Below, one piece after another: positions 3,850-25,254 of a stretch of 63,928 bases of DNA (positions are counted from its first letter, which is position 1; each line of letters starts with the position of its first letter). The position numbers and the translations under genes were made by a program. The notes under the pieces were generated by a model that was not told the origin of the DNA, made no database searches, and saw nothing but the letters and a program-made list of their open reading frames with translations. This stretch comes from an uncultured bacterium (GTDB lineage: Bacteria; Bacillota; Clostridia; Lachnospirales; Lachnospiraceae). The stretch is from NCBI GenBank assembly GCA_947567075.1, contig CANOLZ010000002.1, positions 1-63,928 on the forward strand, in the 5' to 3' direction.

Positions 3850-4989
3850 TTATCCCTTCAATATGTTTTTTAAAGTAGTAACAACATACTCTAGTTCCTC
3901 ATCCCGAATACCAGTGGAGCTAGGCAGGGTTAGTATTTCTTCCCAAATCCTTTCTGACACGGGCATATTGGACCTTTCTGCCTCTTTGTAAGGTTTTTGC
4001 AAATGGACTGGCTTCCAGAAGGTTCTTGCCTCAATATCTTTCTCCTTTAAAGCAGTACATATATCTTTTACCTTATATTTCTTTCCTAAGACAACACCTG
4101 AAAACCAGCATGCACTCTCTGCCCAGTCTTCATCCGGAAAAAGGGAAACCTCTTTTATATCTTTTAACTGGCTGTTATAGTAGTTTCGAATCCTTCTCTT
4201 TTTGTCTACGAATTCATAAACCCTCTCTAGCTGGGCACAGCCTACTGCTGCCTGCAAATTGGTCATTCGATTGTTATAGCCAACCATGTCATGTTCATAG
4301 TCTATACCACATCTTGCTGTTGTAGCCAGATGTCTAGCCCTTTCTATAAGCTCTTTATTGTCGCTCACAATGGCTCCCCCGCCACCACATGTTATTGTTT
4401 TGTTTCCATTAAAAGAAAAAACTGTGGCATCAGCAATCTTTCCTATATTACCCCCCTTATATTTTGCTCCTATGGCTGCTGCCCCATCAGCAATAAGGGG
4501 CAGGTGATATTTTTCCCCAATCTCCTTTAGCCTGTCCATCTTTGCGGGAAGTCCTAAAGTATATACAGGCATAATGGCCGCCACCCTTTTACCTGTTTCC
4601 TTATGATAGCACTGACCATTTTTAGAAAATGTCTTCTCTTCCAATTCCTTTTCTAATACAGAAGGATCCATGGTCCAGGATGTTTCTGAAACGTCAATAA
4701 GCCAAGGCTCTGCTCCACAGTGGGCAACTGCATTAGCCGTTGCAATAAAAGTAAAGGACGGAATACAGACCAGTTCTCCCCTCTCAACCCCCCATGCCCG
4801 TAAAGCCATATGGAGACCTGCTGTCCCTGACGATACAGCCGTTGCATACTTTGCCTCTACAACATCTGCCACACCTTGTTCCAGCCTTGTCACAAAGGCT
4901 CCAACGGAAGATACAAAGGTGGTGTCAATACATTCGTTTAAATATTTTCTCTCATTTCCCGTCAAATTCGGTTCTGCTAAAAAAATCAT
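3850..4989 (-). CDS. legC: LegC-type PLP-dependent sugar aminotransferase (DegT/DnrJ/EryC1/StrS family)
   Basis: This 379-residue fold type I aminotransferase has family length. It reads FVSSVGAFV near residue 25, SSGTAGLHMALRAWGV for cofactor phosphate binding, ADGAAAIGAKYKG, and SFNGNKTITCGGGGAIV with the lysine that should hold PLP. The C-terminal ARTFWKPVHLQKPY is typical of the LegC group, which aminates C4 of a 4-keto-6-deoxy nucleotide sugar using glutamate. The start overlaps the end of the upstream dehydratase gene by 4 bp (ATGA), suggesting translational coupling. LegG, LegI, NeuD and PtmE-like genes nearby support a legionaminic-acid-like pathway. Related enzymes for other amino sugars cannot be excluded. 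Confidence 0.8.
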   Translation of the reverse strand: MIFLAEPNLTGNERKYLNECIDTTFVSSVGAFVTRLEQGVADVVEAKYATAVSSGTAGLHMALRAWGVERGELVCIPSFTFIATANAVAHCGAEPWLIDVSETSWTMDPSVLEKELEEKTFSKNGQCYHKETGKRVAAIMPVYTLGLPAKMDRLKEIGEKYHLPLIADGAAAIGAKYKGGNIGKIADATVFSFNGNKTITCGGGGAIVSDNKELIERARHLATTARCGIDYEHDMVGYNNRMTNLQAAVGCAQLERVYEFVDKKRRIRNYYNSQLKDIKEVSLFPDEDWAESACWFSGVVLGKKYKVKDICTALKEKDIEARTFWKPVHLQKPYKEAERSNMPVSERIWEEILTLPSSTGIRDEELEYVVTTLKNILKG

Positions 4990-5975
4990 TTTGCTCCTCT
5001 CTCTGCCCCACTAAATATATTCTCTTTATACCATTCAAAAGTCTTCTTAACTCCCTCCTCTAGAGAAACTTTTGGGGTAAATTCAATACATTCCTTTGTC
5101 TTTTCCATATTGGGGCATCTACGTTCAGGGGAACCTGATGTGTTTTCCATATTTTGAACTTCATAAGGTTTTTCCACTGCTTTCAAAATAATCTCAGCTA
5201 AAGCCTCCATAGCTATTTCTGGCTCTTGATTTCCCACATTATAAGCCTGTCCCAGAGATTTTGGGCTTTCCGCCAGCAATCTTATCATTTCCACTGCATC
5301 AGAAATATAACAAAAGGTTCTTTTATGGGTAGGAGAAAAAACTTCCAGCTTTCCTTTTCCTTCATCAAACCAAGCCTTTCTTAAAAGCTCTGGAATCACA
5401 TGGGACATTCCCATTCTAGGTCCATAAAAATTATGAGGGCGTATAATTGTGAAAGGCAGCCTGCTCTGATTCATCACAGCCTCTCCGTATATTTTTGATA
5501 ACATATAAGAGGTTCTTGGATGTTCTAAAGGAGTCAACGTTAGGGGAGTACTTTCTGGAGTTGGAATTTCCATATGAAAATATTGAAGTGTCCCTCCATA
5601 AACTTCACTTGTAGAAGCAAAGACAAACCTTTTTAACTGGGTCTGTTTTTTTGCAAAATCAATGGCGTTAAATAAAAGAACCATATTATTTCTTAATACT
5701 TCATCTGGTTTATTTAGTACATTTTGCACCCCTATAATGGCTGCTAAATGATAAATGTAATCATACTCTCCTTTTAATTTTTCAAAGCTTGCACTGTCTT
5801 GTAAATCTAAAGACAGTAATGTAACCTTATTATTTTTCTCTAATTCTTCCAGATTGGAATCTTTTACGCCTCGTTCAAAATTATCCACCAATGTAATCTC
5901 ATACTGATGATCCAGCAAGTCTTTTGCCAGATGATATCCAATAAACCCAGCTCCTCCTGTAATTAATGCTCTCAA
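4986..5975 (-). CDS. NAD-dependent extended SDR, nucleotide-sugar dehydratase/decarboxylase-like (LegB candidate)
   Basis: This 329-residue protein begins with the NAD-binding motif GGAGFIG and has STSEVYG and SYMLSKIYGE (the catalytic Y-x3-K). It also has RPHNFYGPRMG and a C-terminal ERRCPNMEKTKE block of the kind found in UDP-glucuronate decarboxylase and dTDP-glucose 4,6-dehydratase relatives. Position suggests it supplies the 4-keto sugar for the overlapping LegC-like aminotransferase, so it is the LegB candidate. However, the EVYG-to-YxxxK segment is longer than I expect for LegB, and the gene overlaps a UDP-sugar dehydrogenase gene, so acting on an oxidised (uronic) sugar is a real alternative. 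Both ends overlap neighbours by 4 bp. Confidence 0.7.
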   Translation of the reverse strand: MRALITGGAGFIGYHLAKDLLDHQYEITLVDNFERGVKDSNLEELEKNNKVTLLSLDLQDSASFEKLKGEYDYIYHLAAIIGVQNVLNKPDEVLRNNMVLLFNAIDFAKKQTQLKRFVFASTSEVYGGTLQYFHMEIPTPESTPLTLTPLEHPRTSYMLSKIYGEAVMNQSRLPFTIIRPHNFYGPRMGMSHVIPELLRKAWFDEGKGKLEVFSPTHKRTFCYISDAVEMIRLLAESPKSLGQAYNVGNQEPEIAMEALAEIILKAVEKPYEVQNMENTSGSPERRCPNMEKTKECIEFTPKVSLEEGVKKTFEWYKENIFSGAERGAK

Positions 5976-7378
5976 ACTCTATGCCCTCCTCTTCCAATTC
6001 CTGCAAACTTATAGTGTCCATGGCTTATATCTTGAATTTGCTTATTCGTCAATACTCGATTTGCATCAAATATTAATATATTATTCTCGCCAATCCAGCT
6101 CTTTAAATCTATCTGGGCATACTCCTTATGGGCAACTGTAAAAACAACTGCATCAAACCCATCACTTGGAGGTATTTCCTTCCTAACTTTTATTCCCATT
6201 TCCCTCCATTCACTTACAAGGGGATCTTGAAAGGTCAGTTCTCCCTCTCTTCTCATTGCTTCCCTGGCAAAAATTTCTGTTGGTGAATATCTAGTGTCAC
6301 CCACATCTTGACGATAGCTTACTCCAAGGACTAATATTTTTTTCCCTAAGAGACTTCCTCCTAAAAGTTCTTGTATTTTATCTAAAGATACAATCGGCAT
6401 TTCATTGTTCATCTCCACTGCTTTCGTGCAAAAGGGAAATTCTAATCCTGAAAGTTCTAAAATGTCTTTTGCGCCTAGGGCTGCAAAAAAGGGATCTTTT
6501 GTAAGACAGTATCCCCCAACTCCAAATCCTGGCTGTCGAATATTGGAATGGGTTGGTCTCATTCGAATAGCATCTACTACTTCAAACAAATCAAATTCTG
6601 CCTTTTCTGAAAAGCGTCCCCACTCTTCCATAAATGCTATCGTAACAGCCCGATAAGAGTTCTCTAATACCTTTGCCGTCTCTGAGGCAGTTGTACAAGA
6701 TAATCTTGTCAGTGGATATTTTTCTACATGAATTACATTGGATAGAAATTCTTCGCACATATTTGCTGATTTATCATTAATGCCTGCAAACACTCTCCAA
6801 TAATTTACAATAGAGTTATAATAATCTGCTCCTGGCATAACTCTTTCGTAAGAATGGGCTAATAAAACCTCTTCCTTTTCTATCCCTCTTTTCTTAAATT
6901 CTTCCTCTAAAATTGGTTTAATTACCTTTTCACAAGTTCCTGGTGGAACTGTTGTTTCTATAATTAAAAGGCTGCCCTTTTTCATTTTACTTCCTATTGT
7001 GTGCATTGCCTCTTTATACATTTTCAAATTTAAGTACGGCTCTTTATCTTCTTTATAGCTTACGTCAAGATTAATATCGCTTAAAATAATGTCTGCTTCT
7101 CCAAACCATTGGGAATCTGTTGTTGCCAGCATATTTTTGTTTTTAACACATTCTTTGTGAGCTCTGCTCAGTTCTTCATCTACATTTTCAAAGGGAAAGA
7201 TCCCTTTATTCATAGCATTTGTCTTTTCTATTCCTTGCTCGTTTGGCAATTCTATGCCGATTACATTGTATATGGGCTCGCCTTTTTTATTTTTTGCATT
7301 TGCTACTGCAATTGCCATTGCTGCCCCCACAAATCCTAAGCCTTGTATGCAAACTAATGGTCTCTCTGTGCTAAACAC
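5972..7378 (-). CDS. UDP-glucose/UDP-HexNAc 6-dehydrogenase family protein
   Basis: This 468-residue protein has the three-part layout of nucleotide-sugar dehydrogenases. An N-terminal NAD domain (CIQGLGFVGAAMAIAVANA) has the ETTVPPGTCEKV turn; a central dimerisation helix carries SETAKVLENSYRAV; the C-terminal sugar-nucleotide domain has GKKILVLGVSYRQDVGDTRYSPT. The catalytic cysteine is visible as C291 in GFGVGGYCLTKDP. These enzymes oxidise C6 of UDP-glucose, UDP-GlcNAc or UDP-ManNAc to a uronic acid with two NAD+. RVMPGADYY points to the UDP-HexNAc branch, but not decisively. It overlaps its neighbours by 4 and 8 bp. A dehydrogenase is not part of the textbook legionaminate route, so the cluster may make a second sugar or an oxidised variant. 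Confidence 0.85.
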   Translation of the reverse strand: MFSTERPLVCIQGLGFVGAAMAIAVANAKNKKGEPIYNVIGIELPNEQGIEKTNAMNKGIFPFENVDEELSRAHKECVKNKNMLATTDSQWFGEADIILSDINLDVSYKEDKEPYLNLKMYKEAMHTIGSKMKKGSLLIIETTVPPGTCEKVIKPILEEEFKKRGIEKEEVLLAHSYERVMPGADYYNSIVNYWRVFAGINDKSANMCEEFLSNVIHVEKYPLTRLSCTTASETAKVLENSYRAVTIAFMEEWGRFSEKAEFDLFEVVDAIRMRPTHSNIRQPGFGVGGYCLTKDPFFAALGAKDILELSGLEFPFCTKAVEMNNEMPIVSLDKIQELLGGSLLGKKILVLGVSYRQDVGDTRYSPTEIFAREAMRREGELTFQDPLVSEWREMGIKVRKEIPPSDGFDAVVFTVAHKEYAQIDLKSWIGENNILIFDANRVLTNKQIQDISHGHYKFAGIGRGGHRV

Positions 7379-8552
7379 TTTCTTTCCCTCCTATATCGTA
7401 AAAGGTTTTCTTTAAATCAATAGAGCCCTCTGACATAAATTTATCAATCTTATCAGCAATTTTATCTGTTGCTTGTCCCTCCCCATAAGGGTTTACAGCA
7501 GTGGAAGCAAGTTCTTTAAATTCCTTTGACAATGCTTTTTTCATGGCCTTTACAATTTCCTGTCTGTCTGCTATACAATTGATTACACTGGATGCTTGTA
7601 TCCTCCCCTTTTGTCTGTCACCAATATTTACTGTGGGAATCTGAAAGGAGGGAACTTCTAGTATACCACTGCTAGAGTTACCTACAACCATTTCTGCACC
7701 TCTTACTGCATTTAAATATTTTGTCATTCCTAGGGAATCAAAAAGAGCTGTATGGGGAGTATCCTCCACATATTTCTCCAACAGTTGATTCATTTTTCTT
7801 CCCCCTTCGTCTGCATTGGACTTTGTTATAATAAAATTCATTTGGGGAAATTCCTGTAAGGCTAATAAAAGCTCTTTCATCTGGCCTTCTCCAGTTCCCT
7901 CTTCCAATGTCACTGGATGAAAAGTCACAACTCCATATGGCGTCTCTTTGTTCCATGAAAGATTTAACTGGTTAAATAATTCTTCTTTTGACATTTTTTT
8001 TAAATGAACAATATTCTCTACACCCAGTCCCCCTACATTGAACACCCTATTGGGATCTTCTCCCAATTGGATAACCCTTCTTCTATATTCCTCGCAACTT
8101 GTAAAATGTAAATAACTCATTTTAGAGACGGCATGTCTTATACATTCGTCAATAGCTCCTTCTGTCGTCTCCCCTCCATGAAGGTGGACAATGGGAATTC
8201 TCTCGTTCATAGCAGCTATACAAACTGCCAATGTCTCAAATCGATCCCCTAATACAATTAACATTTTTGGATTGGAAGCGGCAAAATAATCTGCAAATTT
8301 TATAATAGCTTCAGCCATTGCCTGGGAAACGCCCCCTGCTGTATCTTCCTTAGATAAAATAGGAATTTTTGTATCAACCTTAAATCCATCTTCCTCAATT
8401 TCTTTTAATGTATATCCAAAAGAGGAAGATAAATGCATGCCTGTAACAGCAATTCGAACATCATATTCCTTTTCTATGAGCTTTCCAATTAATCTTTTTA
8501 GCAAACCATATTCTGCCCTTGTGGCTGTCATAACGCAAATTTTTTCTCTCAT
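7371..8552 (-). CDS. legG: Hydrolysing UDP-sugar 2-epimerase, NeuC/LegG type
   Basis: The protein opens with REKICVMTATRAEYGLLKRL, the usual start of NeuC/LegG. It has VLGDRFETLAVCIAAMNERI, HLHGGETTEGAIDECIRHAV, and VGNSSSGILEVP near the C-terminus. The family removes UDP and epimerises C2 to release free ManNAc-like sugar (2,4-diacetamido-2,4,6-trideoxymannose in the legionaminate route) for condensation with PEP. I place the start at 8552: a GGGGGATG stretch lies 6-13 bp before it, and it matches family N-termini. An in-frame ATG at 8567 adds only MGDEV. It ends 8 bp inside the dehydrogenase gene. Confidence 0.85.
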   Translation of the reverse strand: MREKICVMTATRAEYGLLKRLIGKLIEKEYDVRIAVTGMHLSSSFGYTLKEIEEDGFKVDTKIPILSKEDTAGGVSQAMAEAIIKFADYFAASNPKMLIVLGDRFETLAVCIAAMNERIPIVHLHGGETTEGAIDECIRHAVSKMSYLHFTSCEEYRRRVIQLGEDPNRVFNVGGLGVENIVHLKKMSKEELFNQLNLSWNKETPYGVVTFHPVTLEEGTGEGQMKELLLALQEFPQMNFIITKSNADEGGRKMNQLLEKYVEDTPHTALFDSLGMTKYLNAVRGAEMVVGNSSSGILEVPSFQIPTVNIGDRQKGRIQASSVINCIADRQEIVKAMKKALSKEFKELASTAVNPYGEGQATDKIADKIDKFMSEGSIDLKKTFYDIGGKESV

Positions 8553-8644
8553 CACTTCATCCCCCATTCTTTGCCCAGCCTAGGAAGTTAGGAGCAAGTA
8601 CAATCGCCCTAAGACGCTAGGTAACATGCTCTGCAAACTACCAA
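8553..8644 (-). other. Spacer between legI and legG with a possible hairpin
   Basis: Most junctions in this operon overlap or are short, but about 94 bp lie between the legI stop (8647) and the preferred legG start (8552). On the minus strand an imperfect hairpin can be drawn: an outer CCTAG/CTAGG stem, a mismatched 4-nt step, then TTAGG/CCTAA closing a loop of about 15 nt. There is no T run, so it is not a simple terminator. It could be an mRNA processing or stability element; this is only inference. Confidence 0.3.
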
Positions 8645-8646
8645 TA

Positions 8647-9645
8647 TTACAATATAATCATTTCGTCTATCTCATAGTCTCTGTCTGCCTTTGTTCCAAT
8701 TACTTCATCCCACCTCATGGGAGAAACCCCATAACCTGGTCTTTTTGTTGTTATATTATCCTCTGAAAAAACTTCTCCCTTTTCTATTTTCTTTGAAGCA
8801 ACAATGCTTTTTCTAACAAACTCTATATTTTTTTTCTCTGATTCTGAAGTAATTTTTTTTCCGTCCCCTAAGGCAAATTCTATATTTCTAATGGAGCGAA
8901 CCATTTCTTTTAGCTCATCTGGCTCTAAGCTCGCTTTATGATCTGGTCCTTCCATATTTTTGTCTAATGTAAAATGCTTCTCTATTACAACAGCTCCTAA
9001 AGCCGCTGCGCCAATGGCTGCCTCAATGCCTTCTGTATGGTCAGAATAACCTACTGGAAGCTGAAGTTCTCTTTCCATTGTTTTCATTGCCAGCAAGTTC
9101 ACATCCTTCATAGGCGTTGGATACTCTGTATTGCAATGAAGTATTGTTATTTCCTTTGCTCCATTTTCTTTTAAAACTCTTACTGCCTCTTTTACTTCTT
9201 CCATTTGGCTCATTCCTGTTGACAGTATAACATCTTTTTTCTTTTCTCCTATCCGTTTTAAGTAAGGATAGTTTGTAATTTCTCCAGAAGGAATTTTCAA
9301 AATATTTATGCCTAATTGATCCAGAAACTCAATACTTTCTATGTCAAAAGGTGTGGATAGAAATAAAATACCCTTTGACTTGCAATAATCAAGGAGCTCA
9401 AAGTGAGCCTCATGGGGAAGTTCTAATTTTCTCAACATTTCATACTGGGTTTCTTCTCCCCCTGTCATCCGCACCTGATATTCTGGTTTCTTTGTCTTCT
9501 CGCAAAGGAGGTTCTTCACTTGAAATGTTTGGAACTTTACTGCGTCTGCTCCTGCCTTGACAGCTACATCTACTAACTTTTTCGCAGTCTCCATACTTCC
9601 ATTATGATTGACTCCTGCCTCTGCTATGATAAATATTTTCTTCAT
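8647..9645 (-). CDS. legI: Nonulosonate (legionaminate/sialate-type) synthase, NeuB/LegI family
   Basis: The protein has about 332 residues. KIFIIAEAGVNHNGS and DAVKFQTFQ open the NeuB TIM barrel. ILSTGMSQMEEVKEAV, ILHCNTEYPTP, VGYSDHTEG and VIEKHFTLDK follow in family order. The last 60 residues (RPGYGVSPMRWDEVIG) form the antifreeze-like SAF domain that closes over the active site of the partner subunit. The enzyme condenses PEP with an N-acyl mannosamine-type sugar to make a nine-carbon acid. A start at 9645 has GGAG 7 bp upstream and gives the family N-terminus; an ATG at 9657 would add four residues. Separating legionaminate from sialate or pseudaminate synthase needs phylogeny; the LegC and LegG neighbours favour legionaminate. 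Confidence 0.87.
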   Translation of the reverse strand: MKKIFIIAEAGVNHNGSMETAKKLVDVAVKAGADAVKFQTFQVKNLLCEKTKKPEYQVRMTGGEETQYEMLRKLELPHEAHFELLDYCKSKGILFLSTPFDIESIEFLDQLGINILKIPSGEITNYPYLKRIGEKKKDVILSTGMSQMEEVKEAVRVLKENGAKEITILHCNTEYPTPMKDVNLLAMKTMERELQLPVGYSDHTEGIEAAIGAAALGAVVIEKHFTLDKNMEGPDHKASLEPDELKEMVRSIRNIEFALGDGKKITSESEKKNIEFVRKSIVASKKIEKGEVFSEDNITTKRPGYGVSPMRWDEVIGTKADRDYEIDEMIIL

Positions 9646-9711
9646 TGTCATCTCCATTCTGCCGTATCAACAGCGCTTCATTCTTTTACGGCATATGGAT
9701 ATCCCTTCTGT

Positions 9712-10351
9712 CTATTCAAGGTTTTTCCACACGCCACAGGCCGTACAGGAATCTGGAACATCCCCTAGCACGATTGCTCCTGCACCAATCTTTACGTTGT
9801 TCCCCACAGTGAGACATTGTAAAATCGTTGCGTTTGCCCCAACGAAAGTTTCTTCACCTATTTTTACAACGCCACATGCAATAGCCCCTACAGAAAGATG
9901 AGAAAAATTACCAAGCACACAATCATGCTCTAATACAGCGCCATTATTAATAATGCACATTTTCCCCACTTTTGCATCTCCATTAACTACTGCATTCCTC
10001 CCAATGTAAGAGCCTTCTCCTATTTGTGCACTTTCTGCAATTACTGCCGTTTCATCAATAACAACAGGTAAATGAAAACCAATTTCTTTCAAACGGTAAT
10101 ACAAACGAGTTCGAACATCAGAGGTTCCTAAATATGCCATACATATAAATGCATTTTTTACCCCCCCCCTCACTCAAAAAAAGCTTTTCCAGATCATCAT
10201 CACTGCCAATCACTTCATAATTTTTATATTTTTTCCCTTTATTTTCCTCTTTCTCTATTAATCCAACAATACGATACTTGCTTTGCCTTTCTATTGTATC
10301 AATAACTCCCTTTGCATGTCCTCCAGATCCAACTAAAATAATGTCTTCCAT
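9712..10351 (-). pseudogene. NeuD/PglD-type sugar N/O-acetyltransferase, out of frame at a G9 tract (possibly phase-variable)
   Basis: Two frames together give one complete PglD-like protein of about 212 residues. The first frame starts at 10351 (AGGAGG 7 bp upstream) with DIILVGSGGHAKGVIDTIE, the nucleotide-sugar-binding Rossmann domain, and runs through a run of nine G (plus strand C at 10161-10169) into a stop after EGGGKKCIYMYGIFRNL. One base less puts it in the frame that continues NAFICMAYLGTSDVR and a left-handed beta-helix of hexapeptide repeats, with the likely catalytic His in AVLEHDCVLG. The length, 640 bp, is one base over a multiple of three. The family acetylates the 4-amino group made by the aminotransferase. 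It may be a genuine off state, a mutation, or a homopolymer sequencing error. A GTG at 10173 could start the second part alone, but that would lack the Rossmann domain. Confidence 0.8.
10161..10169 (-). repeat. Homopolymer G9 tract (C9 on plus strand) inside the acetyltransferase gene
   Basis: Nine identical bases interrupt the coding frame at the linker between the Rossmann and beta-helix domains. G8 restores one 212-residue protein; G9 as read here ends it early. Poly-G tracts of this length are known slipped-strand contingency sites in Campylobacter flagellar glycosylation genes. The next longest tract I noticed is G7 in the glycosyltransferase gene 19257-20429 (19858-19864), which is in frame. 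Confidence 0.7.
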
Positions 10352-10418: not shown

Positions 10419-12197
10419 TTAAAGCATCCATTTTTCTAATTCCTCTTTCTTTAAAAATGGATACAAGTCTTGCAAAGCAGGAGTTAACATTTTTCCATTC
10501 TCATCTAATCTTGACATCACTTTCGGAATTACCGGATCATCAAATGCCTGCATAACTTCTAAAAGCACCCTTTCTTTAGATGCAAAGAAATTTTTTAGTG
10601 TCTCTTCCACTTGAGCATTTGTTTCACAGCACATATACTGAAACCCAAAAGCTTTGGCAATTTTTTCAAATTCCGGAAAACTTACTCCTGTGTCAGGACT
10701 TGCCCCAATATAAGCCCCATTAAAAAAACTTTTACTTGTCTGACGGATAGCGCCATAACCATCATTGTTAAAAATGACTATGGAAATAGGCAAATGATAA
10801 TGTACCATTGTCTGAAGCTCTTGCAAATTCATCATAAAGCTTCCATCTCCTGTTACACAAAATACCCTTTTCCCAGAAGCTACAGCTGCTCCAATAGCTG
10901 CTGGAAGATCATATCCCATAGAGCCACAGCTATAATTTCCCATTGCCCGCTGCTCCTTCTTTAAAACGCCAACTTGCATTTTTGCTGAATTGGCCGTATT
11001 GTTGCCCAATGTCAAGACACTATCCTCAGGTTCATACTTTTGGAACATTTTCCAGAAGTAATACATGCATACTCTCTCTGACTCCTTTGCCCCTTTGGCC
11101 CCTTCAAAAGAAGTAAACTCTTTTTTCAAATGGTTACAGTAGGTAAGCCATTCTTCATGCTCCTTATTATCTAGTTTACATGTAAGGCTTTTATAGAAAA
11201 AGGATTTTAAATCTCCATATATCCATTTTTCTATTTTAAGTCCTGGCTTTTTTGCCTCATAAGGATCCCCGTCAACCATATAAATCTGCGCAAAAGGGGC
11301 AAACCCTTCTTGATTAAAACCCGTTTGTCGAAAACCTAAGCTATTTCCCAAAACCAAAACAGCATCTGCATTTTGTAAAATAAAATTTCCTGTCCGCGGT
11401 CCAATATTTCCAGAAGATCCAAAATAAAGCGGATGCTCTAAATAAAAGTTATCCACAACCCAAGCTCCGCCTATTGCTGGTATTTGCATCTTGTCTATAA
11501 ATTCTGAAAACTCCTCCCTTAAATGGCTGTTGACAATGCCTGAACCTGCCAGAATACAAGGTCTCTTTGCCCTTTGGAGGGCCTCTAACACGTCCTTTAC
11601 CTCTTCATCTACTATAGGAGGAATAGGGCTCATATATTTTTCTGGTTTATAAAAATCCTCTTCTTCAACTCTTGCATTTTGAATATCTTGAGGAATATCC
11701 AGCCAAACAGGCCCCCTTCTTCCATCCATTGCAATTTGAATAGCTTTTATTATTTCTCGCTTTACTGCCAATGGATCTGTAAGCATTATGGCATACTTTG
11801 TCATATTTTTTACAGCTGGAATAATTTCATACTCTTGTATGCCCCGATATCTAAGGGGCATCCCTGACTTTTGAATAGATATTTCATACCGAACTTGACC
11901 AGAGATCACAATCATAGGCAGACTATCCTGCCAAGCTCCCAGTACTCCTGTCAATGCGTTGGTAGCTCCAGGGCCAGAGGTGACGCAGACTGCTGCCATC
12001 TTACCGCTATACTTGGCATAGGCTTCCGCTGCCATGGCACATGCCTGCTCATGGTGTTGAAAATATTTATCCATCTTTTCGCAGACAAGCATGGCATTAT
12101 TCAAATGCATTGCTCCCCCTCCTACTACTGCGAAGCATTTTGTTATACCAAACTCTACTAATGTTTCCATGACTACGTCAGCCACTCTCTTTATCAT
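10419..12197 (-). CDS. Thiamine-diphosphate enzyme, acetolactate-synthase-like, in a sugar operon
   Basis: The 592 residues cover the three domains of ThDP decarboxylase/synthase enzymes. The PYR domain has YFQHHEQACAMAAEAYAKYS with the catalytic glutamate, and VCVTSGPGATNALTG. The middle domain has VLVLGNSLGFRQTGF. The PP domain has VTGDGSFMMNLQELQT followed by IVIFNNDGYG, the GDG...NN motif that binds Mg-ThDP. No regulatory subunit or isoleucine/valine gene is nearby. In yersiniose biosynthesis a similar enzyme (YerE) adds a two-carbon branch to a keto sugar, and a reductase then acts; the SDR gene two places upstream fits such a pair. A catabolic role is the alternative. The gene lies 67 bp downstream of the next gene in each direction or less, so co-transcription is likely. 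Confidence 0.75.
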   Translation of the reverse strand: MIKRVADVVMETLVEFGITKCFAVVGGGAMHLNNAMLVCEKMDKYFQHHEQACAMAAEAYAKYSGKMAAVCVTSGPGATNALTGVLGAWQDSLPMIVISGQVRYEISIQKSGMPLRYRGIQEYEIIPAVKNMTKYAIMLTDPLAVKREIIKAIQIAMDGRRGPVWLDIPQDIQNARVEEEDFYKPEKYMSPIPPIVDEEVKDVLEALQRAKRPCILAGSGIVNSHLREEFSEFIDKMQIPAIGGAWVVDNFYLEHPLYFGSSGNIGPRTGNFILQNADAVLVLGNSLGFRQTGFNQEGFAPFAQIYMVDGDPYEAKKPGLKIEKWIYGDLKSFFYKSLTCKLDNKEHEEWLTYCNHLKKEFTSFEGAKGAKESERVCMYYFWKMFQKYEPEDSVLTLGNNTANSAKMQVGVLKKEQRAMGNYSCGSMGYDLPAAIGAAVASGKRVFCVTGDGSFMMNLQELQTMVHYHLPISIVIFNNDGYGAIRQTSKSFFNGAYIGASPDTGVSFPEFEKIAKAFGFQYMCCETNAQVEETLKNFFASKERVLLEVMQAFDDPVIPKVMSRLDENGKMLTPALQDLYPFLKKEELEKWML

Positions 12198-12223: not shown

Positions 12224-13264
12224 TTAAACATTGAGTTTTTCCTTCATTTTTTCCAGTTCCTCAAACTGTCCCATGTCCATATAGGCAGACTCGTTTACAA
12301 TATAGCATCCAATCTTCTCTCCCTTTTCCCTATAATACTCTATAATATCAGGGAAACTTATGGGTTTATTCTCCTCCAACTCATCAATCACCTTAGGGTT
12401 GACAATGTAAACGCCTGTATTAATAAAATATTGATACGTAGGCTTTTCAATCACTCCTACGTAATTGTTTTCCTTATCAATGGAGACAACTCCATAAGGG
12501 ATATCCGCTTTATATTCTGATAACACCATTGTAATAAAATTATGCTTTTTCTTATGTATATGGTATATTGCTGTATAATCTGCATCAATTAAAATATCAC
12601 AGTTTGTTAAAATGAAATCTTTATTTACCTTTCCCCTTAAGAGACTTAATCCCCCTCCTGTCCCTAAAGGCTGTTCTTCCTCTATATATTCCAAGGAATA
12701 GTCTCTATCAATGTTTTCAAAGTAGGACTGTATCATACCCCTTTTGTGGTTCACTATCATAAAGCATTCCTTACACCCACATTCAAAAAAACGGTTCAAA
12801 ATATGTTGGGAAACAGGTATATCTCCAATAGGAATCAAAGCCTTTGGAAGAATTTTTGTATAGGGATGAAGTCTTGTCCCCTTTCCCCCTGCCATCATCA
12901 CGACAGGAATGTCCATTTTTTCCTGTTCTCTTATTACTGTTCCGTCTCGAAATACAACTCCTGTAATTTCTCTGTTTAAATTAATAATTGGCACTGAGTA
13001 CAACTCTGATTCCCGAAAAATCTTTTTCCATTCATCCTTATGATATTCATTACAAGTCCAGGGAGAGTAGTTGGCAATGCTGGATACTTTTTCATTAATG
13101 TCTCCCGCCTTCAATGTAAATCTGCGAATGTCTCCGTCGGAAATAGATGCCAGAAGCTTTTTTCCTTTTACGACATAGACAACCTTGCAACGCACTTCCT
13201 CCAATCTCTGGATTGCCTGTTTAATACTTTCCGTTTCTGATAAAAACATATCTTGCAGTTTCAT
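12224..13264 (-). CDS. PtmE-like sugar-phosphate nucleotidyltransferase with N-terminal CBS pair
   Basis: The 346 residues comprise a tandem CBS region (about 1-115, with LLASISDGDIRRF and PIINLNREITGVVF) and a nucleotidyltransferase domain starting at PVVMMAGGKGTRLHPYTKIL, the GGKGTR nucleotide-binding loop. LGTGGGLSLLRG and FILTNCDILIDADY (metal-binding Asp) follow. This is the arrangement of PtmE from Campylobacter jejuni, which makes the GDP-activated GlcNAc that enters the legionaminic acid route. It is 17 bp downstream of the SDR gene and 26 bp upstream of the ThDP gene. Which nucleotide and sugar phosphate it uses cannot be read from the sequence. Confidence 0.75.
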   Translation of the reverse strand: MKLQDMFLSETESIKQAIQRLEEVRCKVVYVVKGKKLLASISDGDIRRFTLKAGDINEKVSSIANYSPWTCNEYHKDEWKKIFRESELYSVPIINLNREITGVVFRDGTVIREQEKMDIPVVMMAGGKGTRLHPYTKILPKALIPIGDIPVSQHILNRFFECGCKECFMIVNHKRGMIQSYFENIDRDYSLEYIEEEQPLGTGGGLSLLRGKVNKDFILTNCDILIDADYTAIYHIHKKKHNFITMVLSEYKADIPYGVVSIDKENNYVGVIEKPTYQYFINTGVYIVNPKVIDELEENKPISFPDIIEYYREKGEKIGCYIVNESAYMDMGQFEELEKMKEKLNV

Positions 13265-14252: not shown

Positions 14253-14299
14253 CCCTTATAGATCATTATAAAATTTATGAAAGCAACTCCCTTATAGAT
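14253..14299. repeat. 11-bp direct repeat around the stop of the four-domain gene
   Basis: CCCTTATAGAT occurs at 14253-14263 and again at 14289-14299, 36 bp apart. The second copy covers the stop codon of the 705-residue protein. Both lie at the edge of the 120-bp gap before the SDR gene. No T run or transposon ends were seen; the role is unknown. Confidence 0.4.
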
Positions 14300-16474: not shown

Positions 16475-17632
16475 TTAGATTCCAGCAATTCGAAACATTT
16501 CCTGAAATCTTTTTTCATAAGAAAATTCAGAACTGGCCTTCTCTAACCCTCTTTGAGCTATTTTTTTTCTCTCCTCTTCATTTTTCAAATAATACTCTGC
16601 CTTTTCTATCCCTTCCTCTATGCTTGTATAACAAGAAAATTCCTCTTCTGGTATGAAATATTGGGCCAGCTCCTCTTGATAATTGGAGAGCAAAAAACCT
16701 CCCGCCCCCAAAATATCCAAAGCTCTAAGGGGAATCCCTGTCTGTAGAATTTTTAAAGTAATGTTCAAATTAATTTTACTTGCCATAAATATTTTAGGCA
16801 TTTCTTCTAAGTATTTGGCGCTTCCCCTATAGCTTACCTTTGAAAGAGCAGGATGCTCTTCTCTAGAATATAAATTCACCTCATAGTATTTTGATAAAAT
16901 TCCCAGCAAAAGAACCCGTTCCTGTCTTGTTAGAAAGCTGGCAGCTGCGTAAGAAAGCTGTTCCTTACTTATTTGAAACTTTCCTTCTCCCAGCTGTTGT
17001 TTATATTGACTGTTCAATTCATCCATTAAGGGATCCGTCAAAAGTTCATCCAAAAAATAATATCCATATACTTTAAACTGAGCGTCTGCTAAAGCTTTCA
17101 AATATCCTGTCATATAATCATTTAAGGGATTTAATAAGTCTAAAAAAGCTGAAGGATAAAGCTTTCCTACAAAGGAAATATCTCCTTTGTATTTTTTCCA
17201 ATCAGAGGAGGAAAGGCTTATCCTTTTAAGTCTTTTTGTATTGACTGCAAGGGGGAGATGATATACGTTGTTAAATCCCTTATCTCTGTATTGTTTTACT
17301 TGGATTTTGTCAAATAAAAATACATAATTACATTCCAACCCTAAGGTCTTTTCAATCTCCGGTACATTTAAAGGATTATCATAACTCCAGGAAAGATAAG
17401 GTATTCCCTTATTCTGACATGCTATTGCTACAAGGGGAAAATAATTGACTGTAAAAACAGCGTCATACTGATCAAGAGATAAATATGTTCCAAATCGATG
17501 GAGAAAAAAGTCATCTTTGTTTTTATCCCCAAAGCAATAACTAACTGACTTAAATTGTACATGATTTTCCCCTAGTATCTCGTTTACATCCTTTTGGGTA
17601 TAGGCACTCCATTCCAGAAGTAAAAGTTTCAT
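16475..17632 (-). CDS. CgeB/DUF3880-type glycosyltransferase, copy 1
   Basis: This 385-residue GT-B-like protein has the traits shared by five paralogs here: an N-terminal half with IPYLSWSYDNPLNVPEIE and CNYVFLFDKIQ, a central GDISFVGKLY, and a C-terminal SKINLNITLKILQTGIPLRA followed by LDILGAGGFLLSNYQEEL. It ends with the YYLKNEEERKKIAQRGLEK helix typical of CgeB-like transferases. It has no signal peptide or membrane segment, so it is probably cytosolic. Its start overlaps the small companion gene by 4 bp. The position near flagellin and a nonulosonate pathway suggests flagellin glycosylation; donor and acceptor are unknown. Confidence 0.72.
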   Translation of the reverse strand: MKLLLLEWSAYTQKDVNEILGENHVQFKSVSYCFGDKNKDDFFLHRFGTYLSLDQYDAVFTVNYFPLVAIACQNKGIPYLSWSYDNPLNVPEIEKTLGLECNYVFLFDKIQVKQYRDKGFNNVYHLPLAVNTKRLKRISLSSSDWKKYKGDISFVGKLYPSAFLDLLNPLNDYMTGYLKALADAQFKVYGYYFLDELLTDPLMDELNSQYKQQLGEGKFQISKEQLSYAAASFLTRQERVLLLGILSKYYEVNLYSREEHPALSKVSYRGSAKYLEEMPKIFMASKINLNITLKILQTGIPLRALDILGAGGFLLSNYQEELAQYFIPEEEFSCYTSIEEGIEKAEYYLKNEEERKKIAQRGLEKASSEFSYEKRFQEMFRIAGI

Positions 17633-18111
17633 CGAATCATCTCCAATTCTGTATCCAATAATATTTTCTCAATAAGGGTATTCCACTGGATTTTCTCTCT
17701 CTTTCCTTCGTAAAATCCTACATTTGGAACATTAGGAAACTCCTGTCCTACCTTTTTTGCTTCCTCCTCCCCTTGGCAATAGACAAACATAGAAAAATTC
17801 ATTCTCTCCTTTAATGAATTCTCATAAATTTTCCAATGATTTAGAAGGATATAGGCAATTCTCCCATATAACAAATTTAAGGATATTTCTTCCTGCTCTG
17901 TGCGAAATTCAAATCCGGCAAAGTCAAAACTTACTATTAACGGAACCTTTATTTTTTGAATTTCAAAAAACTGTATATGCAATGGTTTGTCCTTACAAAT
18001 ATTATATATTTCTCCTTCTATTCCCACTTTATTTAGGCTCTTTAAAAGCTGAGAACTTCTTTTCTCCTGTTCTGGAAATCTTTCTCTATTTGTTATTATG
18101 AGCGTTTTCAT
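17629..18111 (-). CDS. Small protein of unknown family, paralog of the 21711-22589 product
   Basis: This 160-residue protein starts with MKTLIITNRERF. Its core, VPLIVSFDFAGFEFRTEQEE, then RMNFSMFVYCQGEEEAKKV, lines up with PDIILTFDMAGFFLYDERKE and RMNFPTTFYVRSEEEADYL in the 292-residue protein further along. The spacing and charge pattern recall the N-terminal half of CgeB-like transferases, so it may be a one-domain relative acting as a partner subunit. It overlaps the glycosyltransferase genes on both sides by 4 bp, which ties it to their expression. There is no catalytic motif I can name. Confidence 0.5.
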   Translation of the reverse strand: MKTLIITNRERFPEQEKRSSQLLKSLNKVGIEGEIYNICKDKPLHIQFFEIQKIKVPLIVSFDFAGFEFRTEQEEISLNLLYGRIAYILLNHWKIYENSLKERMNFSMFVYCQGEEEAKKVGQEFPNVPNVGFYEGKREKIQWNTLIEKILLDTELEMIR

Positions 18112-19256
18112 TTTATAATCTCCAATATTTTTTTTAGTGCTATTGGATAAGAGTAATCTTTTTTAACTCTTTTATATCCATTTATTGCGATCTGTTTTCT
18201 TATATCCTCATGTTTTAAATAATAATGAACCTTTTCAATTAATTCTTCCATAGTATGAAAAAATACAATTTCTTTGTCTGGCACAAAGAGTTCTTCCATT
18301 TCTTCCTGAAAATTGCTTAAAACAAATCCACCAGCTGCCATAATATCATAAACCCTTTGGGGAACCCCTGTCTCAATAGATCGCATAGTCATGTTTAAAT
18401 TAATTTTACTGTAGTGATATATTTTCGGCGCTTTTTCATACTCTATCTTTCCATGTATACGTACATTTTCTAAAGCATAACTTTCACTGTTTGTATACAA
18501 GTCCACCTGATGTTGGATTGCCAAACCATTTAAAACACATATTCTTTCAATTTCTGTCACTTTGCGCGCAATATAGTATAATTCCATAAAGTAGGACAGT
18601 TCCACCTCATATTCTTTGAAAGGTTTCACATAGGTTAGGAGCCCTTCTGCTTCTGCTTCTGTCAAACTTCCAAAAAATTCCCTTCCTTTCTCCCAATGCA
18701 TTGCTTTCTTTAAAATAATGGAATCTATGGATTCCTTTATCTCTCTTGAAAAGAATCCTGCTTCTTCGTTGTAATGATTTTTCTCATATAAACTGCCTAC
18801 AAAGGTTATATCTGCACTATATGTTTTTTCATCTTCCTCTGAAATGGGAAGCATAGATATTTTGGATACATTGGCTGCCAAAGGCAAATAAAATAAATGG
18901 GAAAGTCCCCTACTTTTCATTCTCTCATACTGGTTTTTGTCAAAAACAAAAATATAATTACAGTCATTGAATGCTGCTTGGGAATATAAGTGAATTTGGG
19001 GAGAATCAAAAACCCAGGATACATATTTCACTTTATTTTCCATACAGGCATTGGAAACAGTTTGAGAGAAATTATGAGTAATTACAAAGCTATAGTTGTT
19101 TTCTTTTAAATAGTTTGATAAGACTGCCTCTTCTTCTTTTCTTGGAACTTGCATTTGGACAAAAGCAGGATAAAGCTCCACCTCCTCCCCCAGCTCCATA
19201 AGTCCCCAGGGAATGTCCATTAAATCTACTTCCCAACGCACAAATAAACCTTTCAT
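18108..19256 (-). CDS. CgeB/DUF3880-type glycosyltransferase, copy 2
   Basis: This 382-residue protein reads VKYVSWVFDSPQIHLYSQAA and CNYIFVFDKNQYERMKSRGL, then LFYLPLAANVSKIS, ADITFVGSLY and KINLNMTMRSIETGVPQR. VYDIMAAGGFVLSNFQEEM and YYLKHEDIRKQIAINGYKRV follow. It is clearly closest to copy 3, with which it is directly adjacent (no gap), so the two look like a tandem duplication that has diverged. Its insert between the halves (about residues 165-245) differs from copy 1, which may reflect a different acceptor. Confidence 0.72.
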   Translation of the reverse strand: MKGLFVRWEVDLMDIPWGLMELGEEVELYPAFVQMQVPRKEEEAVLSNYLKENNYSFVITHNFSQTVSNACMENKVKYVSWVFDSPQIHLYSQAAFNDCNYIFVFDKNQYERMKSRGLSHLFYLPLAANVSKISMLPISEEDEKTYSADITFVGSLYEKNHYNEEAGFFSREIKESIDSIILKKAMHWEKGREFFGSLTEAEAEGLLTYVKPFKEYEVELSYFMELYYIARKVTEIERICVLNGLAIQHQVDLYTNSESYALENVRIHGKIEYEKAPKIYHYSKINLNMTMRSIETGVPQRVYDIMAAGGFVLSNFQEEMEELFVPDKEIVFFHTMEELIEKVHYYLKHEDIRKQIAINGYKRVKKDYSYPIALKKILEIIK

Positions 19257-20429
19257 CTACAAATCTCCCTCCTCCCCTCTCACTGTTTCTATTATCTTTG
19301 ATAAAGCCTTGGGATAAGAGTAATAGTCTCTTACTTTTTTGTATCCATTCATAGCAATCCTTAGCCTCTCTTCCTCATGCTTTAAATAATAGTTCACCTT
19401 TCGAACTAGCTCCTCCATATTTTTAAACATTACAATTTCCACATCTGGCACAAACCGTTCTGCCAGTTCTTCCTGATAGTTGCTCATTACAAAACCTCCA
19501 ACGCTCATAATATCAAACACTCTTTGAGGAATGCCTGTCTCAATGGAACGAAGGGTAATATTCAAATTAATTTTACTTAAATGGAATATTTTCGGCGCAT
19601 CTCCATCATAGGAAACGGGAGGATGAACCATTACATTTTCTAAGTCTTCTGTATTACTTCCTGTATAAAGACATACATGGTGATTCAACGCCAAGGCATT
19701 TAAAATGCATATTCGCTCAATCTCCGCTATTTTGCGAACAATATACAGCACTTCCACTGTATATTCAGGAGCTTCTGTCAAGGGATAAAATAAGTAGAGC
19801 GTTTCTGACATATCTTTAAAAATCTCTTTTGTCACTGCCCCAAATATAGAGGAAGAGCCCCCCCACTGAAAGGCATTTTCCATAATTATCTTATCTAAAT
19901 ACTCTTTTATAGAACTGGAAAATCTGTGGATGTCTAAATTATAGCTGTTATCTCTGTAAAGTCCTCCAATAAAGGAAATGTCACAGCTATATTTTTTTAC
20001 ATCTTCTTCCTCTACTGCAATAGTAGAAGCCCTTGCCACATTGGCTGCAAGGGGTAAATGATATAAATGCCCCAACCCTCTTTTTTTCATTCTTTCATAC
20101 TGGGCTTTATCAAAAACAAAAATATAATTATTGGAATTATAAGCGCTTTTTTCGTATAATTCCATAAGAGGGGAATCAAATATCCAAGACACATACTTCA
20201 CTCCTTGTATCTTACAGGCATTGGATATTGTGGGAGAATAATTATGGGATATGACAAACTCATACTTTTTTTTCTCCAAATACGAAGAAAGCATATTCTC
20301 TTCCTCCTGAATATTCGACTGAATTGTAATAGTTTCATCGTAAATTTCCACCTCCATTCCAAGTTCCAACAGTCCCCAAGGAATATCGGACAAAACAATC
20401 TTGTCACTGTGTATAAATAATACGGACAT
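19257..20429 (-). CDS. CgeB/DUF3880-type glycosyltransferase, copy 3, first gene of the operon
   Basis: This 390-residue protein shares VKYVSWIFDSPLMELYEKSA, NNYIFVFDKAQYERMKKRGL and LYHLPLAANVARAS with copy 2. CDISFIGGLY and KINLNITLRSIETGIPQR come next, then VFDIMSVGGFVMSNYQEEL. A G7 run (19858-19864 on the plus strand as C7) encodes part of QWGGSSS; it is in frame here but is a second possible slippage site. The gene starts next to a 154-bp divergent intergenic region and appears to lead the long minus-strand operon that reaches past base 1. No promoter there is certain. Confidence 0.72.
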   Translation of the reverse strand: MSVLFIHSDKIVLSDIPWGLLELGMEVEIYDETITIQSNIQEEENMLSSYLEKKKYEFVISHNYSPTISNACKIQGVKYVSWIFDSPLMELYEKSAYNSNNYIFVFDKAQYERMKKRGLGHLYHLPLAANVARASTIAVEEEDVKKYSCDISFIGGLYRDNSYNLDIHRFSSSIKEYLDKIIMENAFQWGGSSSIFGAVTKEIFKDMSETLYLFYPLTEAPEYTVEVLYIVRKIAEIERICILNALALNHHVCLYTGSNTEDLENVMVHPPVSYDGDAPKIFHLSKINLNITLRSIETGIPQRVFDIMSVGGFVMSNYQEELAERFVPDVEIVMFKNMEELVRKVNYYLKHEEERLRIAMNGYKKVRDYYSYPKALSKIIETVRGEEGDL

Positions 20430-20483
20430 TTAGCACACCCTTTCCCTTTCCATTTTCATTGTTTTTTCCCTAATTTTTCTTAT

Positions 20484-20511
20484 CTGTATTTACTTGAAGG
20501 ATAAAATACAG
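20484..20511. promoter_or_regulatory. 8-bp inverted repeat in the divergent glycosyltransferase intergenic region
   Basis: CTGTATTT (20484-20491) and AAATACAG (20504-20511) form a perfect inverted repeat with a 12-bp spacer, between divergent genes starting at 20429 and 20584. The size and place suit an operator or a small hairpin. I could not assign -35/-10 boxes with confidence. No T run follows on either strand. Confidence 0.35.
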
Positions 20512-20583
20512 TATACTTTCCCAAAAGACTATTTTAAGCAGATAAGTGAATCCCCCACTAGATAAGGAAGGAGAATTTCCATA

Positions 20584-21756
20584 ATGAGAATTCTATTTAT
20601 TGACTGGAACAGTTTTGGCAATGAAGACATTATCTATCATTTGAAAAGAGCTGGCCATAAAATAGTATACATTCCCTTTTCCAATGAAAAAAACACAAGA
20701 GATAATGAACAATTACAAAGGGAAATAATTGAAAAAATTTCTTCCTGTCGCCCTATTGATTTTATTTTTTCCTTTAATTACTATCCTGTCATCTCCAAGG
20801 CAGCGATGATATCCAATGTAAAATATGTTTCTTGGGTTTATGACAGTCCCTTTATACAGCTTTACACATATTCCTTAGAAAATCCATGTAATTATGTCTT
20901 TCTCTTTGACAAAGCTGTTTATTTAGAACTAGCGTCAAAAGGCTTCCAAACAGTCTATTATCTTCCCCTTGCAGCCAATGTGGAACGATATGATTCTCTG
21001 CCCAATGTTCCCTCAAAAATAAAACGTTACCGTTCTCCTATCTCCTTCGTAGGCTCCCTCTATTCCGAAAAGAAAAACCAGCTTTATAATCGCTTTGAGG
21101 GGATCTCCAACTATACAAAAGGATTTCTTGAAGCTCTTATCTCCTGCCAAAAAAGAATTTATGGAGAATTTTTGCTGGAAAAATGCTTAACAGAAAAAAT
21201 TTTGACAGATATGATTCTGTCTTATCCAGTAACCCCCAGTTTAGATGGTTTTGAAAATGTCTCCTGGACGTATGCTCACTATTTTCTTGCAAGAAAAACA
21301 ACAGAAATAGAACGTCAGGAAATATTATCCATGTTATCACAACAATATTCTGTAGCCCTATACACAAAAGAGCCCTCTCCTTTTCTACCTAAAGTTGACA
21401 ATCGAGGAGAAATTGACTATTATACTCAAATGCCTTTTGTTTTTAAACATTCCAAAATTAATTTAAACATTACCTTAAGGAGCATTCAAACAGGCATCCC
21501 TCTTCGCGCCATGGACATAATGGGATGCGGTGGTTTTTTATTAACAAACTTTCAAGCTGATTTTCTTGATTTCTTCCAGCCAGACATTGATTTTGTTTAT
21601 TATGAAGATTACGAGGATCTTTTAGAAAAAACAAATTATTATTTAACCCATGAAAAAGAGCGGCTTCAAATTGCAAAAAGAGGCTATGAGAAAGTAAAAC
21701 AATATCATAATTATCCTGTAAGAATTGAGGAAATAATCCATTGCGTTAATTCATGA
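20584..21756 (+). CDS. CgeB/DUF3880-type glycosyltransferase, copy 4, inverted
   Basis: This 390-residue protein is the only copy on the plus strand. It shows VKYVSWVYDSPFIQLYTYSL, CNYVFLFDKAVYLELASKGF and VYYLPLAANVERYDS. SPISFVGSLY and KINLNITLRSIQTGIPLRAM follow, with DIMGCGGFLLTNFQADF. AGGAAGGAG precedes the ATG. Its last 46 bp overlap the end of the convergent minus-strand gene 21711-22589, so the two transcripts would be complementary at their 3' ends. This inversion could let it be expressed separately from the other copies. Confidence 0.72.
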   Translation: MRILFIDWNSFGNEDIIYHLKRAGHKIVYIPFSNEKNTRDNEQLQREIIEKISSCRPIDFIFSFNYYPVISKAAMISNVKYVSWVYDSPFIQLYTYSLENPCNYVFLFDKAVYLELASKGFQTVYYLPLAANVERYDSLPNVPSKIKRYRSPISFVGSLYSEKKNQLYNRFEGISNYTKGFLEALISCQKRIYGEFLLEKCLTEKILTDMILSYPVTPSLDGFENVSWTYAHYFLARKTTEIERQEILSMLSQQYSVALYTKEPSPFLPKVDNRGEIDYYTQMPFVFKHSKINLNITLRSIQTGIPLRAMDIMGCGGFLLTNFQADFLDFFQPDIDFVYYEDYEDLLEKTNYYLTHEKERLQIAKRGYEKVKQYHNYPVRIEEIIHCVNS

Positions 21757-22589
21757 GAAAAAAAGAGCTCCTCTATTTTTACTTCTTGTAAAATGTGAGA
21801 ACCCTTAACTGGACATTTCTCCCAGCCTTCTCCCAAAACGCTTACTTCTCTTTCTTTTACATATTGCTCCTTTTCTTTCATCTCATAAGAAGCAGGAATA
21901 CCCCTAAATAATATAGCCAATTCAATGACTTCTTCCATGGAATAGGAGCAATTTGCCTTTTCTAAATAATGTATAATTTTTAAGTGATAATAGTCCTTAG
22001 CTCTCTCCCATTGCTTCCATATACTTTCTCCCATTTTTTTAAAAGCTTCAGGAAGATTTCTTAAAGATGCCTTGAAACTTTCTGGATCTTTATAATCTCC
22101 TATAAAGAGCTGTCTCCTTTTGGGGGAAGACTCCAGAAATATACCTGAAAACAGGCCTTTCTCCCAAGCGTTAGACAGGACTCTTACATCCAGTACGTTA
22201 TCATAACAGGAGAGCAGATAATCTGCCTCCTCCTCACTTCTTACATAAAAAGTAGTAGGAAAATTCATTCTTCTTAGAAGCTGATCTGGATAATACCAGG
22301 GCGCTTTTGTCAAAATATGAATACAATAACTGTATACAGAATTATATATCAATTCTTTTCTCTCATCATACAAAAAAAATCCAGCCATGTCAAAAGTGAG
22401 AATAATGTCTGGATCCATTAAATAGAAGGCTTCCATACATGGAGCATAAATATCTTCCTTAGACAAGTCCACTTTGATAACCTCCATACCTTCCTTGTCC
22501 AGCTCCCTATACAAAAGCTCCCTTATCAAACTTCCTAGAAATGTTGTTTTTTCATCTGTAACCAACACAAATTTTTTTAATCTATTCAC
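21711..22589 (-). CDS. Protein of unknown family, longer paralog of the 17629-18111 product
   Basis: This 292-residue protein starts MNRLKKFVLVTDEKTTFL. Residues 60-135 carry PDIILTFDMAGFFLYDERKE and RMNFPTTFYVRSEEEADYL, shared with the 160-residue protein. The C-terminal half is helical and charged with no motif I know. It may be an N-terminal glycosyltransferase-like domain with an added helical tail. It lies 2 bp downstream of the GT2-like gene, and its 3' end overlaps the convergent copy 4 gene by 46 bp. Confidence 0.45.
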   Translation of the reverse strand: MNRLKKFVLVTDEKTTFLGSLIRELLYRELDKEGMEVIKVDLSKEDIYAPCMEAFYLMDPDIILTFDMAGFFLYDERKELIYNSVYSYCIHILTKAPWYYPDQLLRRMNFPTTFYVRSEEEADYLLSCYDNVLDVRVLSNAWEKGLFSGIFLESSPKRRQLFIGDYKDPESFKASLRNLPEAFKKMGESIWKQWERAKDYYHLKIIHYLEKANCSYSMEEVIELAILFRGIPASYEMKEKEQYVKEREVSVLGEGWEKCPVKGSHILQEVKIEELFFSHELTQWIISSILTG

Positions 22590-22591
22590 GA

Positions 22592-23257
22592 CTATTCAAA
22601 AAACTCCCTATATTCTTTCAGACATCTTTTTCTATAAAAATCATAATTTCGCAAACTGATAATTCCATCATCATGAACGCACCAAGGGTTTGCTTGCCCT
22701 GGAACAACAATTCGATATCCTGCCCTTTTCATTTCAAAGCTTTGAGAAATGTCATAGAAATCCCATCCATCAAACAGATCTTCCCTCCAAGGCAAATCTT
22801 TTCTCGTTACCATTAAAAAGCCGTCAATGGCATCCACATCATAGATTCCATCTTCTAAGGAAAACATATAATCTCCATAGTTTTTTTCAATATTTGTTTC
22901 CCCATAAAGAGCTCCCAAGCGGTAATTATGCCACATCATCCCATCAATGGCCATCTTTTCTGTGCCTACCATACCAATCATTCCTATGTTTTCATCTGTC
23001 TTGAATACTTTTAAAATATCTTCTAGGAAATGACGGTTTACAATACGCACATCCTGATGTAAATAAATTTTATAAACTGCATTCGATGCTTTCATTCCTT
23101 CATTATATCCAGAAGTCATCGAGGAGGCATCCTCAATACTTAATGTCTCAATGGAATATCCCTCTGGCACATAAAGGCGGTGAATATATAATAAACATTC
23201 TTCTAACGACATCATGTTATTACTGCAGCAAATAAAGCAAAATTTATGATCATCCAT
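22592..23257 (-). CDS. GT-A glycosyltransferase-like protein (Glyco_tranf_2_5 / StrF-like)
   Basis: This 221-residue protein begins FCFICCSNN, followed by ASSMTSGYNEGMKASNAVYK and IYLHQDVRI, the pattern of the StrF-like GT2 domain in which the Q-D pair stands for the metal-binding DxD. DAIDGFLMVTRKDLPWREDL and DISQSFEMKRAGYRI with a late CVHDDGI complete the fold. Such domains transfer sugar from a nucleotide donor. The start overlaps the upstream 251-residue gene by 8 bp. It probably adds a sugar in the same flagellar glycan; this rests on position only. Confidence 0.65.
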   Translation of the reverse strand: MDDHKFCFICCSNNMMSLEECLLYIHRLYVPEGYSIETLSIEDASSMTSGYNEGMKASNAVYKIYLHQDVRIVNRHFLEDILKVFKTDENIGMIGMVGTEKMAIDGMMWHNYRLGALYGETNIEKNYGDYMFSLEDGIYDVDAIDGFLMVTRKDLPWREDLFDGWDFYDISQSFEMKRAGYRIVVPGQANPWCVHDDGIISLRNYDFYRKRCLKEYREFFE

Positions 23258-24005: not shown

Positions 24006-24029
24006 AGATACACCATGCCTTTCTCATTT

Positions 24030-25196: not shown

Positions 25197-25228
25197 TTTT
25201 CCCTTTCCCCTTAATTCATTCAAAAAAT

Positions 25229-25254
25229 AAAGGGTTGACATATGTCAACCCTTT
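25229..25254 (-). terminator. Flagellin terminator hairpin
   Basis: A near-uninterrupted inverted repeat, AAGGGTTGACA/TGTCAACCCTT, starts about 20 bp after the flagellin stop and is followed on the minus strand by a T-rich run (TTTATTTTTT). This is a strong intrinsic terminator that probably limits read-through into the glycosyltransferase genes. It also contains TTGACA, but no matching -10 box was found. Confidence 0.8.

Follow-up and report, generated by a model that had tools for sequence, protein, structure and literature searches.

The stretch of DNA analysed here, 63,928 nucleotides in all and called the window below, holds a sugar acetyltransferase gene whose two halves lie in different reading frames that meet at a run of nine G. 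The locus raises the question whether this run is a switch that turns the gene on and off, the mark of a gene being lost, or an error of the assembly, and, if it is a switch, at which step of surface glycan synthesis it would act. The genome from which the window comes, probably that of a gut clostridium, is a single draft of 2.29 Mb in 161 contigs, 79% complete, and homopolymer runs in it were counted by pattern search. Positions of the features discussed are given in Table 1.

Table 1. Features of the window, of other contigs of the same genome (C numbers) and of G10 tract loci across the bacterial family (L numbers)
Feature	Position or locus	Strand	Basis or remark
G9 homopolymer tract, proposed slippage switch	10161..10169	-	one of only three runs of at least eight G in the genome
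Acetyltransferase, N-terminal part (PglD_N)	10118..10351	-	PF17836 1.6e-10; TIGR03570 positions 2-55
Acetyltransferase, C-terminal beta-helix (hexapeptide repeat), shifted frame	9712..10173	-	TIGR03570 positions 66-199, 1e-42; PF00132
LegC aminotransferase	3850..4989	-	TIGR04181 431.3 bits, cut-off 420
LegB-like NAD-dependent 4,6-dehydratase	4986..5975	-	best NCBIfam match TIGR04180 125.5 bits, under cut-off 475
NeuC/LegG-type hydrolysing 2-epimerase	7371..8567	-	TIGR03568 456.9 bits, cut-off 235.9
NeuB/LegI-type nonulosonate synthase	8647..9657	-	TIGR03569 515.3 bits, cut-off 399.65
Acetolactate-synthase-like TPP enzyme adjoining the acetyltransferase	10419..12197	-	68% identical neighbour in G125
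PtmE-like nucleotidyltransferase with CBS domain	12224..13264	-	PF00483, PF00571; name inferred from domains and neighbours
Block of DUF3880 and other glycosyltransferases	16475..25241	.	presumed builders of the flagellar glycan
Flagellin	25275..26105	-	PF00669 2.3e-41, PF00700 2.7e-24
CMP-nonulosonate synthetase candidate	C1:80271-80885		outside the window
G9 tract splitting FkbM-family methyltransferase	C20:13265-13273		joined protein 71.2 bits on TIGR01444
G10 tract splitting SAM methyltransferase	C97:84-93
G10 tracts in Acyl_transf_3 genes	L093, L184, L200, L212		split in L093, L184 and L200 (three further genera); in frame in L212
G10 tract in MBOAT gene	L117		split
G10 tracts in hexapeptide transferase genes	L175, L177, L113		split in L175; in frame in L177; near the end in L113
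G10 tracts in glycosyltransferase genes	L090, L098, L181
G10 tract in gene for PMT_2-like protein	L190
G10 tract in DUF1919 gene	L110
G10 tract in gene for type I restriction specificity subunit	L191 (G420:C29)		in frame
G10 tracts in LytTR regulator genes	L185, L207
G10 tract in gene for ABC-2 protein	L202

The split acetyltransferase gene

An earlier note on this DNA had described a gene of the NeuD/PglD family lying in two frames that meet at a G9 run, and this is borne out exactly, on the minus strand. The frame of the N-terminal half starts at the ATG at 10351 and stops 13 codons beyond the tract, which in the assembled state splits the gene at the junction of its two domains. With one G removed the halves join into a protein of 212 amino acids, the length that the note had given, which scores 189.9 bits in a profile search with TIGR03570, the model of the NeuD/PglB/VioB family of sugar acetyltransferases. 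The curated cut-off of this model is 160.8 bits, so that the joined protein belongs to the family by its whole-protein score, while the separate halves (39 and 146.1 bits) both fall short of it. The order of domains is also that of the family, PglD_N (PF17836) in one half followed by the hexapeptide beta-helix (PF00132) in the other. Both halves retain family residues, as had been claimed, and no second lesion was seen in the joined 212 codons. The gene has one of the features expected of a phase-variable gene, a long homopolymer within the frame, over-long for its genome, on the length of which the reading frame depends.

The flagellar cluster and the probable step of the enzyme

The setting in a flagellin cluster, likewise proposed from the letters, agrees with the gene content of the window, which includes flagellin, FliS, FliD, FlaG, FliW, FlgL and FlgK together with nonulosonate and glycosyltransferase genes. 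The TPP enzyme that adjoins the acetyltransferase is outside the textbook legionaminic acid pathway. Two further genes of the window are worth recording in their own right. One (14292-16409), within the flagellar glycosylation cluster, encodes a protein of 705 amino acids with a C-terminal domain of the citrate-lyase-ligase type; a homologue in genome G420 (locus L176) carries a G10 tract near the 3' end and lies beside a second gene, which is split by a G9. The other (2200-3816) encodes a sulfotransferase-like protein, the beginning of which gives a weak match to the N-terminal part of the NeuD/PglD model.

As to the effect of losing the enzyme, the earlier note was probably wrong. It had predicted the loss of one acetyl group on the nine-carbon sugar, but both the neighbours and the homologues of the gene point to LegH, which acts at an earlier step. 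LegH is the GDP-4-amino-4,6-dideoxy-GlcNAc N-acetyltransferase and carries out the N-acylation step in the synthesis of CMP-legionaminate (PMC13317340). The remaining pathway lies alongside the split gene, with LegC, NeuC and NeuB scoring over the cut-offs of their models, a LegB-like dehydratase scoring under its own, and a PtmE-like protein recognised by its domains. The gene order LegC-PtmE-NeuD-NeuB-NeuC recurs among family members. The closest solved structures of the C-terminal half, matched over most of its length (1e-16 to 5e-25), are PerB (4ea7), PglB (4m98), PglD (3bss) and VioB, all of them N-acetyltransferases that act on nucleotide-linked 4-amino sugars. Because of the shared gene order and these nearest structures, the acetyltransferase most likely acts as LegH on the six-carbon GDP-amino sugar, before any nine-carbon sugar exists. 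If so, the off state should stop legionaminic acid altogether and not trim a single acetyl group from it.

It is also conceivable, although rather unlikely, that the gene is a switch but that its enzyme is a true NeuD which O-acetylates the finished nine-carbon sugar. TIGR03570 does include NeuD proteins, and the NeuB and NeuC of the cluster find their best matches in models named for neuraminate. Against this stand the LegB-type, LegC-type and PtmE-like genes of the cluster, the 4-amino sugar substrates of the nearest structures and the position beside PtmE and NeuB, which is fixed in the family. Moreover, no second NeuD-type acetyltransferase scoring well was found in the 79%-complete genome; given this completeness, an unrelated acetyltransferase of the GNAT type may replace the LegH step.

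Long G runs in the genome

Exact runs of six G number 245 in the whole genome and runs of seven 12, after which there are none of eight, two of nine and one of ten. Extrapolated with the decay from G6 to G7 (0.049), about 0.6 runs of eight and about 0.03 runs of at least nine would be expected, where 0 and 3 were seen; by our own arithmetic the Poisson probability of three runs of at least nine is then about 5e-6. A laxer model with P(G|G) = 0.27, taken from the window genes, leads to about one expected run of at least nine and a probability of about 0.08, and it overpredicts the shorter G runs about ninefold. A stronger argument against chance than these counts is the placement of the tracts. 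Eleven of the 12 G7 runs are within long intact frames and the twelfth is intergenic, while the runs of at least nine are all three inside genes and all three frame-breaking, the broken genes being this acetyltransferase, an FkbM-type methyltransferase and an SAM methyltransferase. We also considered whether three long tracts are in themselves an unusual count for the family and rejected this, since runs of at least eight G occur in 351 of 397 family genomes. Notable in this genome are the location of the tracts and the missing length class of G8.

For the SAM methyltransferase gene on contig C97 an intact paralogue is available on contig C20 (79% DNA identity). At the site of the G10 run the paralogue reads ACAAATGGGACA (G3) and is seven bases shorter. 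Between the two copies dN/dS is 0.13 before the tract (165 codons) and 0.12 after it (26 codons), low on both sides, so that purifying selection must have acted on both parts during most of the period since the two copies diverged. C20 and C97 both carry glycosyltransferases, and a fragment on C97 shares 53% identity with one of the DUF3880 glycosyltransferases in the window. In another genome, G125, homologues of the FkbM gene, NeuC, NeuB, LegC, the acetyltransferase, the TPP enzyme, PtmE, an SDR gene and a C20 glycosyltransferase are gathered within 19 kb, and from this co-location C20 and the window would seem to be pieces of the same type of island.

A sequencing or assembly error, in which case nearly all cells would really carry G8 and an intact gene, is in our opinion unlikely. 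That the genome is a single draft in many contigs speaks for it, and so does the fact that all three long tracts are exactly one base over an in-frame length; because of the latter a length bias shared by the assembly is possible, and the exact assembled length may be wrong. However, other homopolymers are clean, as seen from the G7 runs and from the intact window genes, which contain 22 A/T runs of eight. Shortening the three tracts to G8, G8 and G9 would still leave them longer than any other G run of the genome, all of them within glycan-type genes, and tracts of this kind are expected to slip. A plain error is less likely because it leaves unexplained why the only three long tracts are placed in such genes. 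Rather than the product of a sequencing slip, the three runs are therefore probably switches that turn surface sugars on and off at random.

History of the tract

At the position of the tract a glycine codon is found in 24 of 25 aligned homologues (35-57% identity), four more distant homologues do not have glycine there, and the acetyltransferase in its G8 reading has two extra residues at this point. No long G tract was found in the acetyltransferase homologues, the longest run among 29 family loci being five G, and because of this the G9 tract is, to judge from these loci, specific to this lineage. Such specificity fits a young hypermutable tract. Conservation of the tract in relatives is common in phase-variable genes but not required.

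A lineage-specific tract absent from relatives would also agree with a recent and irreversible loss, in which a slip of one base inactivated the gene and decay is now under way. We find this quite improbable, as the joined codons carry no other damage and keep family residues on both sides of the tract, three independent genes share the same type of lesion, and a tract of this kind is able to slip back. The nucleotide-binding domain and the beta-helix are expected to be needed in one chain, as in PglD. This makes it very improbable that frameshifting or restart at the tract still allows expression of the gene at G9, as a leaky or two-chain enzyme, even though the C-terminal frame is opened by a GTG just 5' of the tract and by an in-frame ATG a little beyond it, and even though translational frameshifting at G/C tracts of Campylobacter jejuni maf genes partly restored motility (PMC3068675).

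The proposed switch

Taken together, we consider it likely that this LegH-type acetyltransferase gene, part of a cluster for flagellar glycosylation, carries in its G9 run a contingency tract of the slipped-strand type. Phase variation is the best explanation because all three long tracts break glycan-type genes, the rest of the acetyltransferase gene is intact and similar tracts occur in glycan genes of other genera in the family. Of what had been read from the letters alone the switch is thus well supported, if indirectly, while its predicted effect probably does not hold. Replication slippage would reversibly add or remove one G in the tract. At G8 (or G11) the enzyme of 212 codons would be made and the gene would be on, whereas at G9, the assembled state, the early stop would leave it off. 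When on, the enzyme would N-acetylate GDP-4-amino-4,6-dideoxy-GlcNAc, the product of LegB and LegC, after which NeuC/LegG and NeuB/LegI would lead to 5,7-di-N-acetyl-legionaminic acid for the flagellum, presumably for use on flagellin; when off, the pathway would halt before the nine-carbon sugar. The two methyltransferase genes, with their G9 and G10 tracts, would switch independently, and cells would in this way differ in their glycan coat. A switch at the step that decides whether a nonulosonate is made would divide a single population into cells with and cells without the glycan, which would probably affect motility as well as recognition by antibodies and phages. To the immune system, the flagellin of gut clostridia is a major antigen.

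Poly-G tracts across the family

Exact G10 tracts are present in 119 of the 397 family genomes. Roughly half of the approximately 70 that we inspected were judged non-coding from the openness of the frame. Those situated in or at the end of recognisable genes are mostly in glycan-type genes, a proportion obtained by inspection of these approximately 70 tracts and without a formal background rate. Type I restriction specificity subunits, one of which is among the genes with a tract (Table 1), are a class often phase-variable elsewhere. In G329, a genome of another genus, two G10 tracts split an MBOAT gene and a hexapeptide transferase gene less than 10 kb from PtmE-NeuD-NeuB, and by its gene content this is an independent nonulosonate cluster with frame-breaking tracts. 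We lean slightly towards the view that poly-G contingency tracts are a widespread and undescribed switching system in this large clostridial family, which to judge from its more than 350 genera is probably Lachnospiraceae. The tracts would have a preference for genes of glycan acyltransferases, methyltransferases and glycosyltransferases, among them genes in flagellar nonulosonate clusters. If this is true, slippage lets commensals change their coats in the manner of Campylobacter.

Two other observations on tracts in the family can be added. At four loci (L069, L108, L112 and L114) a run of G10-G11 is found directly 5' of a TATAAT-like box, and these are candidates for phase variation of the promoter type through a change of spacer. 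Tracts of at least eight G, or of G10, are far more numerous in G170, G318 and the genus g85 (G084, G393) than in the rest of the family.

Comparison with known systems

The phase variation known from gut Gram-positive bacteria works mostly by inversion of DNA. For Lachnospiraceae or clostridia our literature search found no report of phase variation through poly-G tracts or strand slippage, a weak negative, as most subscription journals were outside its scope. Compared with LegH, the gene described here is likewise found beside LegB/LegC/PtmE/LegG/LegI-type genes in a flagellar cluster, and the expected step matches (PMC13317340), the identification being made from neighbourhood and fold family. 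With the N-acetyltransferases PglD, PerB and VioB it has in common the PglD_N domain followed by the beta-helix; it differs from them in that the assembled gene is split between the two domains and in that its substrate is a predicted one.

The mechanism itself is already known from flagellin glycosylation in Campylobacter, where C. jejuni has several phase-variable flagellin glycosylation genes with poly-G/C tracts per genome, such as Cj1295 and maf (PMC3068675, PMC4965091). The host differs here, being a Gram-positive clostridium whose genome has just three tracts of at least eight and in which switching is a prediction. The targets differ too, being a LegH/NeuD-type acetyltransferase and two methyltransferases, with a tract that is not common to relatives. 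Alike in both are a G homopolymer within the frame of a gene, its place in a flagellin glycosylation cluster with nonulosonate synthesis, and several such genes in one genome.
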